From a virus: a DNA stretch of 42,772 bases. Both the position numbers and the translations under genes were made by a program. Shown in pieces: positions 33,454 to 35,217 of the stretch; positions within the stretch are counted from its first letter, which is position 1, and each line of letters starts with the position of its first letter. The notes under the pieces are model-generated. The model worked only from the letters and a program-made list of their open reading frames with translations, ran no database searches and was not told the origin of the DNA. The stretch is taken from positions 1-42,772 of IMG/VR virus record IMGVR_UViG_3300027759_000158; one strand, given 5' to 3'.

Positions 33454-35217
33454 TCAGACCTTCTCTTTAAGCTTCGCCTCTACGCGGATAATCCCCTCTG
33501 CAATCCAGGACATGCAAGGCACGGCCATCGAGTTGCCAGCACACTTATACTGCGGTCCGTCCGGTGCCTGGCCGGCGGGCTTACCCTTCCAAGGGATGTT
33601 GGTCCAGTTGTCGGGGAATCCTTGAAGCCGCATGCATTCATTGACGCTCAACCTACGCACGACCATCTCGACCGCAACATGGGGCGACTGGTCGCCGCTA
33701 TCCTTGGTCAAGGTCGGGAAGGTTTCGGTCGAAGGATCTGCCCCGCCCTTGCGACGCAGGTTCCCCGGCTGGAAGGCAACAGCAGGAGCGCCATGCCCAC
33801 CTGCGGTACGGAGCGGAACATGCACATCGCCGGTGAGTGTCTGATTATACAGGTCAACGCCTTGCGGCTGCACGACTAACGCATCAGCCTCGACACGCTC
33901 ATTGCCGGTCTTTGAGAACGGTGCGCCGCTTGATACGGTTGGAGAAACCTTTGAGCAATGCACGGCAAGCGGTTCCGTGTCTCCGCTCTTCGTGTTAGCC
34001 TTTAGCGTGGGGCAAACCTTCTGCTCGGTGATCTTGTCGTTAAGGCGAAGCTCGCTTGCTTGGACGATGAATGGGTCTTGTTGGGCAAGGTGGATTGCAG
34101 TAATCTCGTCGATGGCTTCGGAGGAAGAACCTCCGCGGCTCCCCTTACAGGTAGTAACCGTTGGTGCAACGATAGGCTGGGCAAGCCATTGATCTGGAGA
34201 TGTTGCGATTGTAAATGTCTTCTCCTCGCTGCCCAGGAAGCCCTTGCCTGCACCCTTGCCTGGCGTACCGCCCTGCTCACCAGTCTCGACCGGCGAACCG
34301 CCACGAATCTTGAACATCATAGGAGGTATACCGATGGCGTGTGGGCCGCGAGCTACCACGGTATCCATCACCTCTGACTCCCCGATGTGCGGTTCGTATA
34401 GAGCGTTCTCGCCTTGATTGAAGGCGGCCCTGTCGATCACGACAGGCATAGGCTGAAGGACGGCGGGGAAGCGGTTCTTCTCTGGCATCGTCTGCCCCTT
34501 TGCGAGTACGGCGTCGAGCGTCTGGCTTACTTGTCCTCCATCCCACCAGCATCCTGCTCCGACTCCTCCGGCTCCGACAGGGCTACCCTCTCTAGAGCTT
34601 TCTGCAACATTGGCGGAAGGCTTTTTCCTCGTTTGCTTGCCCTGCGCAATATACCTCTGCAAGCCTTCGCCGATAGATAAAGCCTCTGCGGCAATTCTCC
34701 AGTCTCCAACACCTGTGACAGGGTCGCGGTGGGCCAAGACGAACACTCGCCGACGCCGCTGTGGCACTCCGAAGTGTTCAGCATTGAGAACCCGGTAGGA
34801 CCACCCATAGCCGAGCTGCCCCAGCGCCCCAAGGAAGGCACCAAAGTCCCGTCCTCCTCCGCTTGAAAGCACTCCGACAACATTTTCCCACAGGATATAT
34901 CGGGGACGTAGGTGGTCAGCCAATCCAAGAAAGGTGAGGCAGAGATTGCCGCGGGGATCTGCGAGTCCTTTCCGCAGGCCGGCAACGGAGAAGGACTGAC
35001 AGGGTGTTCCTCCGACCAGAAGGTCGATTGAACCGGGTTCGATTGGCCAGGATTTGTATTGGGTGAGGTCGCCATGATTTGGTGTGTTGGGAAAGCGGTG
35101 CTTCAGTACAGCTGAAGGGAAAGGCTCAATCTCGCTGAACGCAACAGGCGTCCAGCCGAACTTGTGCCATGCGTTGGTAGCGGCTTCGATGCCAGAGCAG
35201 ACGGATACATACTTCAT
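33454..35217 (-). CDS. C5 cytosine DNA methyltransferase
   Basis: 587 residues. Motif I SVCSGIEAA (5-13), FSEIEPF (27-33), motif IV GGTPCQSFS (69-77) with catalytic Cys73, ENV (111-113) and QRRRR (153-157) are all present; GNSMAVP near 563 is motif X. The middle (about 200-510) is a long variable region for target recognition. It may protect phage DNA from host restriction. A second long ORF lies inside it in another frame. The promoter is TTGACC-N17-CATCAA and the leader CCATCCCAACCT. Confidence 0.95.
   Translation of the reverse strand: MKYVSVCSGIEAATNAWHKFGWTPVAFSEIEPFPSAVLKHRFPNTPNHGDLTQYKSWPIEPGSIDLLVGGTPCQSFSVAGLRKGLADPRGNLCLTFLGLADHLRPRYILWENVVGVLSSGGGRDFGAFLGALGQLGYGWSYRVLNAEHFGVPQRRRRVFVLAHRDPVTGVGDWRIAAEALSIGEGLQRYIAQGKQTRKKPSANVAESSREGSPVGAGGVGAGCWWDGGQVSQTLDAVLAKGQTMPEKNRFPAVLQPMPVVIDRAAFNQGENALYEPHIGESEVMDTVVARGPHAIGIPPMMFKIRGGSPVETGEQGGTPGKGAGKGFLGSEEKTFTIATSPDQWLAQPIVAPTVTTCKGSRGGSSSEAIDEITAIHLAQQDPFIVQASELRLNDKITEQKVCPTLKANTKSGDTEPLAVHCSKVSPTVSSGAPFSKTGNERVEADALVVQPQGVDLYNQTLTGDVHVPLRTAGGHGAPAVAFQPGNLRRKGGADPSTETFPTLTKDSGDQSPHVAVEMVVRRLSVNECMRLQGFPDNWTNIPWKGKPAGQAPDGPQYKCAGNSMAVPCMSWIAEGIIRVEAKLKEKV
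34527..35075 (-). CDS. Embedded overlapping ORF within the methyltransferase gene
   Basis: 182 residues in a frame shifted relative to the methyltransferase on the same strand, open over 549 bp. Start ATG 35075 is preceded by TTCCCAACACACCAAATC, the C/A-rich leader type used by true genes here. The product has FWSEEHP near residue 19, TATLSQVLETGELPQRLYLS (about 117-136), then AKACRGILRRASKRGKSLPP (about 137-156). I recognise this GILRRA.KRGK..PP pattern from products annotated in many phages at this same position inside dcm-like genes. So dual coding is likely real rather than a shadow. Function unknown. Confidence 0.7.
   Translation of the reverse strand: MATSPNTNPGQSNPVQSTFWSEEHPVSPSPLPACGKDSQIPAAISASPFLDWLTTYVPDISCGKMLSECFQAEEDGTLVPSLGRWGSSAMGGPTGFSMLNTSECHSGVGECSSWPTATLSQVLETGELPQRLYLSAKACRGILRRASKRGKSLPPMLQKALERVALSEPEESEQDAGGMEDK

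Follow-up and report, generated by a model that had tools for sequence, protein, structure and literature searches.

The question raised by this locus is whether a phage gene for a C5-cytosine DNA methyltransferase, dcm, carries a second protein-coding gene in its +1 frame and, if so, what the second protein does. The locus lies on the minus strand of IMG/VR record IMGVR_UViG_3300027759_000158, analysed over a stretch of 42,772 nucleotides (the window), for which a first-pass annotation had pointed to a 182-codon same-strand open reading frame (ORF) in another frame of the methyltransferase gene; the ORF is present at 34527-35075. Comparison across related sequences leads us to hold, with high confidence, that it is a genuine, ancient, very widespread and almost wholly unannotated overlapping gene. 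The best explanation of the results as a whole, to which we give a probability of about 0.5, is a same-strand overlapping gene encoding a partner of the methyltransferase. The features on which the argument draws are as follows.

33454-35217, minus strand: dcm, phage C5-cytosine DNA methyltransferase (587 amino acids, frame 0; PF00145 E=9.5e-52, PHROG 116).
34527-35075, minus strand: putative hidden +1-frame gene (182 codons, ATG at 35075, stop at 34527-34529).
34575-34739, minus strand: conserved C-terminal domain, residues 113-167 of the hidden protein (LSxVLExGxxPxRYxLSxKACxGILRRAxKRGKxLPPxLxxAL).
34597-34707, minus strand: Dcm codons 171-207, where +1 is the dominant constrained frame by codon-position entropies (alternative-frame identity 0.55-0.73 vs 0.23-0.51 for Dcm).
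34740-35075, minus strand: N-terminal region of the hidden protein, Ser/Pro/Thr-rich, predicted to be disordered and under weak constraint, as judged by predicted local distance difference test (pLDDT) values and stop depletion.
35016-35030, minus strand: QSTFW, residues 16-20, at the place of the sliding-clamp-like QLTFW of relatives (the window has S where the consensus has L).
34842-34863, minus strand: internal GGAGGAGGACGGGACT-TTG, with TTG at 34844 (duplex energy -12.1 kcal/mol).

The hidden ORF is nested entirely within the 587-residue dcm ORF, on the same strand and in the +1 frame. Motifs I-VIII of Dcm occupy residues 1-165 and motifs IX-X about residues 520-587, and the hidden ORF covers Dcm residues 48-230, which hold catalytic motifs IV-VIII along with the beginning of the variable region. 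Of the target-recognition region, with which an overlap had been proposed, most (about residues 230-510) is outside the ORF. Evidence from the window alone is modest and marks the ORF as mildly unusual (P~0.01): with the Dcm protein fixed, a +1 ATG-initiated ORF of at least 182 codons arose in 0.96% of 5000 synonymous redraws, and no nested same-strand ORF of more than 119 codons was observed in the other 14 large window genes tested.

It is the comparison with relatives that is decisive in making the case for a hidden gene. The relatives were retrieved with the methyltransferase alone as query, the hidden frame having no part in their selection, and in 40 of 40 such loci the hidden protein is found in the +1 frame of the enzyme; the +1 frame is open in L034, L041 and L055 too. 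In a codon alignment of 47 methyltransferase genes, every pair of which has <85% nucleotide identity, variability over Dcm codons 1-120 is concentrated in the third codon position, the usual pattern for a gene. Over codons 181-200 the entropy at position 1 is 1.3-1.4 bits and that at position 3 is down from about 1.5 to 0.4-0.5, a shift of variability from position 3 to position 1 that implies coding, rather than nucleotide, constraint. With synonymous codons redrawn and the Dcm protein unchanged, about 95 stops in the +1 frame are expected over Dcm residues 104-214 and 0 were seen; stops are roughly two-fold depleted in residues 52-103 and not depleted in residues 1-50, and in the +2 frame depletion occurs in isolated short bins alone.

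Identity in the second frame follows the same pattern. Mean +1 identity at Dcm codons 187-200 is 0.73 vs a null of 0.22, with Dcm itself at 0.30, whereas at codons 5-47, outside the overlap, it is at the null (0.27 vs 0.27). The largest excess of alternative-frame identity over its null reaches z=95. In the reverse null, frame 0 identity at codons 187-200 is 0.30 vs 0.21 expected, i.e. frame 0 is also above its null there, so both frames appear to be in use. A Firmicute-type group (L274-L303) has +1 identity of 0.71 vs a null of 0.31 and is likewise under selection. Both signs by which the first-pass annotation had proposed to judge dual coding, a conserved stop-free second frame and an excess of codon constraint, are present among the relatives, and dual coding in the methyltransferase gene is supported by conservation, by the open frame and by the codon constraint. 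On the alignments, only the C-terminal ~50 residues of the hidden protein are strongly conserved.

The same tests bear on whether the signal might be the relict of an ancient frameshift that has not yet decayed, or a shadow cast by conservation of frame 0 or by an RNA/DNA element. Dcm does force part of the +1 similarity in motif-rich regions, and +2 identity also exceeds its null, albeit by less than +1, because fixed low-variation bases are shared between frames. The +1 protein is, however, more conserved than frame 0 in the region in question, the third positions of its own codons are free to vary, stops are absent and the sequences have diverged to a median nucleotide identity of about 64%; the entropy, stop and identity tests largely refute such a relict or shadow, which we regard as highly improbable.

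The statement in the first-pass annotation that the C-terminal pattern GILRRA..RGK..PP recurs at this position in many phages was borne out by searches. The hidden protein matched 129 phage records and the consensus of its C-terminal domain 134, including Vibrio, Mycobacterium, Escherichia, Streptococcus, Ruminococcus, Pseudomonas, Pectobacterium, Caulobacter, Roseobacter, Pseudanabaena and Akkermansia phages. There were further matches in 533 plasmids, of which 449 are from Escherichia and chiefly carry Dam/C5 methyltransferase genes of the type of phage P1 dmt, in at least 578 contig stretches from GTDB genomes and in at least 596 stretches of IMG/VR. The hosts of the phages and prophages span Proteobacteria, Firmicutes, Actinobacteria, Acidobacteria, Cyanobacteria and Verrucomicrobia. 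All 160 of the best loci picked by the domain keep frame 0 open across that domain, which in 157 of them lies +1 relative to a recognisable methyltransferase N terminus; a detectable Dcm N terminus is missing only in L147 and in L247, the latter being truncated. No free-standing copies of the domain, in GTDB genomes or viral contigs, were observed among these 160 loci, and its confinement to C5-methyltransferase genes suggests a functional linkage. In L125 the methyltransferase N terminus and the domain share one frame, which may reflect a natural fusion, a mutation or an assembly error.

Only one annotated copy was found, gp104 of Mycobacterium phage Thibault. The hidden protein has no named-family match in Pfam, NCBIfam, PADLOC or PDB, and an earlier report of the gene was not found in the literature, searched in a partial collection. 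PHROG 16143, a 139-residue 'DNA methyltransferase' family, matches the hidden domain in 25 of the 43 members tested (best E=7e-8), and the proteins of this PHROG may be mis-called copies of the hidden gene.

Clade by clade, a good start codon stands directly after the last +1 stop. Many aquatic phages have AAGGAGTGGnnn-[A/T]TG, which is also the start of the modal clade, or TAA-ATG, P1 and related enterobacterial phages GTGGAGCTTGCAA-ATG or a near variant, Firmicutes TGAGGTGTAAGACCA-ATG, some Alphaproteobacteria TGAGGCTTGCnC-ATG or a near variant, and another Firmicute-type group GGAGAGTGGACAnnnn-ATG. Starts backed by a Shine-Dalgarno (SD) sequence (-6 kcal/mol or better) occur in 44% of loci vs 19+-2% in synonymous redraws. 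The P1 SD-ATG, about 300 nt into dmt, is identical in six other dmt genes of Escherichia P1-like plasmids. The window ATG at 35075 is kept in the clade of the window and its nearest relatives, not beyond. Its C/A-rich leader, previously taken as a mark of a true gene, is real and SD-less like that of dcm and many genes here, but is weak evidence alone and also encodes the Dcm peptide FPNTPNHG. Most window genes have C/A-rich leaders and no SD, which hints at a host that initiates without one. Within the ORF, the TTG at 34844 follows GGAGGAGGA, a strong SD, and a start codon, nearly always TTG, is found at this position in 31 of 47 relatives; it is possibly a second start, or the sequence may simply be coding.

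Own start codons, present in most relatives and often with an SD, argue for a separate protein instead of a product of frameshifting. In a programmed +1 frameshift, some of the ribosomes would leave frame 0 and make a truncated product in which the Dcm N-terminal domain is fused to the +1 domain, a second methyltransferase isoform with the canonical order of motif VIII and then helical segment. Such a fusion would be consistent with the lack of free-standing domains, with the presence of both parts in one chain in canonical enzymes and in one frame in L125, with the abrupt onset at LSDIL of alternative-frame amino-acid constraint in the Firmicute-type group, and with the weak match of a phage methyltransferase model in BFVD (A0A8S5LZA8) to the hidden protein. 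It does not account for the enrichment of SD-backed starts, nor for constraint that begins upstream and at clade-specific starts: in most clades the alternative-frame constraint can be followed upstream across motif VIII as far as about codon 121 and the depletion of stops as far as about codon 52, neither of which would be needed if ribosomes changed frame downstream. The Firmicute group also avoids upstream stops (0 vs 6.5). Nor did inspection of the nucleotide alignment by eye reveal a conserved shift-prone site at a common place. We consider a programmed frameshift quite improbable.

The likely source of the hidden domain is the methyltransferase itself. In distant canonical phage methyltransferases (L304, L311, L314, L320, L331 and others) a KLSSVLEDKVPDKYFISSEKAKAIIDQAL-like sequence lies in frame 0, directly past motif VIII, and the motif [KR]L[SG]x[IV]LE..V..KY.[IL]S of such viral C5-methyltransferases (L304, L320, L331) matches the hidden domain, the difference being that their segment is part of the enzyme itself. 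E. coli Dcm is presumably also among the canonical enzymes with the segment in-frame. Alignment of the hidden domain with the in-frame segments by hhalign gave a probability of 92.9 (E=3.8e-7, score 36), whereas the maximum score of 30 shuffled-column controls was 12.8. In L274-L303, the Firmicute-type phages, the segment is in +1. By these alignments, two large groups of phage methyltransferases have this piece of the enzyme in another frame. Because canonical enzymes have it in-frame, displacement from frame 0 is the simpler reading; an enzyme segment seems to have moved out of its frame and to have been kept.

Structure prediction is consistent with a small domain borne on a flexible tail. 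In an AlphaFold2 model of the hidden protein built on 120 sequences, the first 115 residues are predicted to be disordered (pLDDT about 48-62), and the C-terminal unit is confident (pLDDT up to 97), with helices at residues 119-125, 136-149 and 155-167. L119, L123, L134, A138, C139, G141, I142, L143, R145, L157 and L161 are invariant in the 120 sequences. The AlphaFold2 model of Dcm has values mostly >93 for residues 1-180 and 525-587 and mostly <50 for residues 185-494; this low confidence makes the part of frame 0 that underlies the hidden domain a predicted linker beyond about residue 185. A Foldseek search of the hidden protein against PDB returned nothing significant, and the best structural neighbour among viral models was Thibault gp104, the same gene.

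An overlapping gene need not serve the enzyme that it overlaps. The hidden gene could have been born in place by overprinting, its product having no functional tie to the methyltransferase (e.g. as an inhibitor of host defence), in keeping with its own starts and with the observation that overprinted viral genes often encode accessory proteins (PMC8227390, PMC6195259). The kinship of the domain with the methyltransferase's own segment, and the lack of any copy away from a methyltransferase gene among the 160 domain-selected loci, speak against such independence, which we think somewhat unlikely.

That the hidden protein is a partner of the methyltransferase is the best, if tentative, inference, for which the odds are at most even. 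In this proposal, ribosomes would initiate separately in two frames of the dcm mRNA. Frame 0 would give the C5-methyltransferase; the +1 frame, with a start codon of its own, would give a small protein whose N-terminal tail is disordered and whose C-terminal domain, of ~50 residues, is helical. The small protein would act on the methyltransferase made from the same message, docking to the catalytic domain at the site that the in-frame segment occupies in canonical enzymes, and might serve as a non-covalent subunit or adaptor. The coding conservation, the starts, the predicted fold and the relation to the methyltransferase segment on which this proposal builds are results of computation.

In clades in which the N terminus is QLxLF-like, the small protein may serve additionally as a tether between the enzyme and the replication sliding clamp, the consensus for which is QLxLF (PMC4549789). 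Pentapeptides of the class Q[LMI][TSD][FLMIV][FWLIY] occur near the start of the hidden protein in 38 of 115 loci of one clade vs a synonymous null of 1.8, and in 8 of 43 loci of a second clade vs a null of 0.2, a strong over-representation in both; the nulls are uncorrected for phylogeny. In the two clades they lie at different enzyme positions (QLTFW; QLTMF, QLTIF, QLSLF). Clamp-like pentapeptides, including QMSLF, were seen in L034, L036, L107, L116, L129, L145 and L303. The broader proposition of a pan-phage unannotated family, in which a displaced piece of the enzyme is supplied in trans and a clamp-binding tail links methylation to the replication fork, seems to us unlikely.

Several observations weigh against an overlapping gene that encodes a methyltransferase partner. 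Its translation in cells is something we infer, as are binding to the methyltransferase and the link to the clamp. All catalytic motifs are, as read from the sequence, still in frame 0, and the role of a missing subunit is not required. A start codon common to all clades was looked for and none was found, and the window ATG at 35075 is without an SD, though dcm and most genes here are without one too. It is odd, were the gene autonomous, that no free-standing copies are seen. Degraded copies in a few relatives (L103, within the domain; L127, with a stop close upstream) imply that the hidden gene is dispensable at least sometimes. The clamp-like motif is missing in P1 and most Firmicute forms and is off-consensus in the window (QSTFW), such that a clamp tether is a clade-level suggestion only.

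Comparison with known two-polypeptide systems helps to place the proposed partner. In M.EcoHK31I and M.EaeI a small subunit is reportedly encoded in an alternative frame within the gene of the large subunit, and M.EcoHK31I resembles the present case in being a C5-methyltransferase system of two polypeptides. Dcm frame 0 alone has motifs I-VIII and IX-X, i.e. the catalytic motifs are not split between two polypeptides, and because frame 0 keeps motif IX, Dcm is by definition not an enzyme of the M.EcoHK31I type. M.AquI is a C5-methyltransferase that is naturally split in the variable region after motif VIII (PMC3404938); it differs from the present case in that there is no small nested protein. 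By analogy, Dcm and the hidden protein might work in a similar way to two-polypeptide C5-methyltransferases, among which we do not assign them membership.

The general kind, an overlapping gene, is known; the origin of this one and the strength of its conservation are unusual. To our knowledge, well-supported same-strand nested genes in double-stranded DNA phages are few and usually narrow in distribution. The apparent displacement of a segment to another frame, where it was kept, is relevant to the origin of overlapping genes. Conservation of the hidden protein is higher than that of the enzyme stretch which it overlaps, and dcm-type mutants may thus be double mutants. The same may apply to published mutants of dmt, the gene for the bifunctional Dam/C5 methyltransferase of phage P1, which encodes this hidden protein in its +1 frame as well (E=1e-15 against the domain consensus; L090, 3001-3186 and 2722 onward), although the P1 record annotates dmt alone. 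The hidden gene inside P1 dmt is carried unseen by hundreds of E. coli phage-plasmids.

Thibault gp104 (YP_009018115.1, G1FGG9) is an 81-residue hypothetical protein that, like the hidden protein, is in the +1 frame and ends with the domain; it differs in that its start is within an insertion that splits dcm, with an HNH endonuclease nearby, and it was called as a separate gene because of this split. The HNH-endonuclease insertion splits dcm in both Mycobacterium phages Schatzie and Thibault (L095, L096), where the annotation reads 'unable to determine intron boundaries', and in both an ATG preceded by a GGAG SD, located at the insertion's 3' end, gives the hidden gene a start of its own. Among the P1-like plasmids (L267-L273) the C-terminal tail of the domain occurs in two versions, RRGEKRRKSLPPLLQ and RRAEARGRKLPEMLE, a pattern that suggests recombination inside the overlap.
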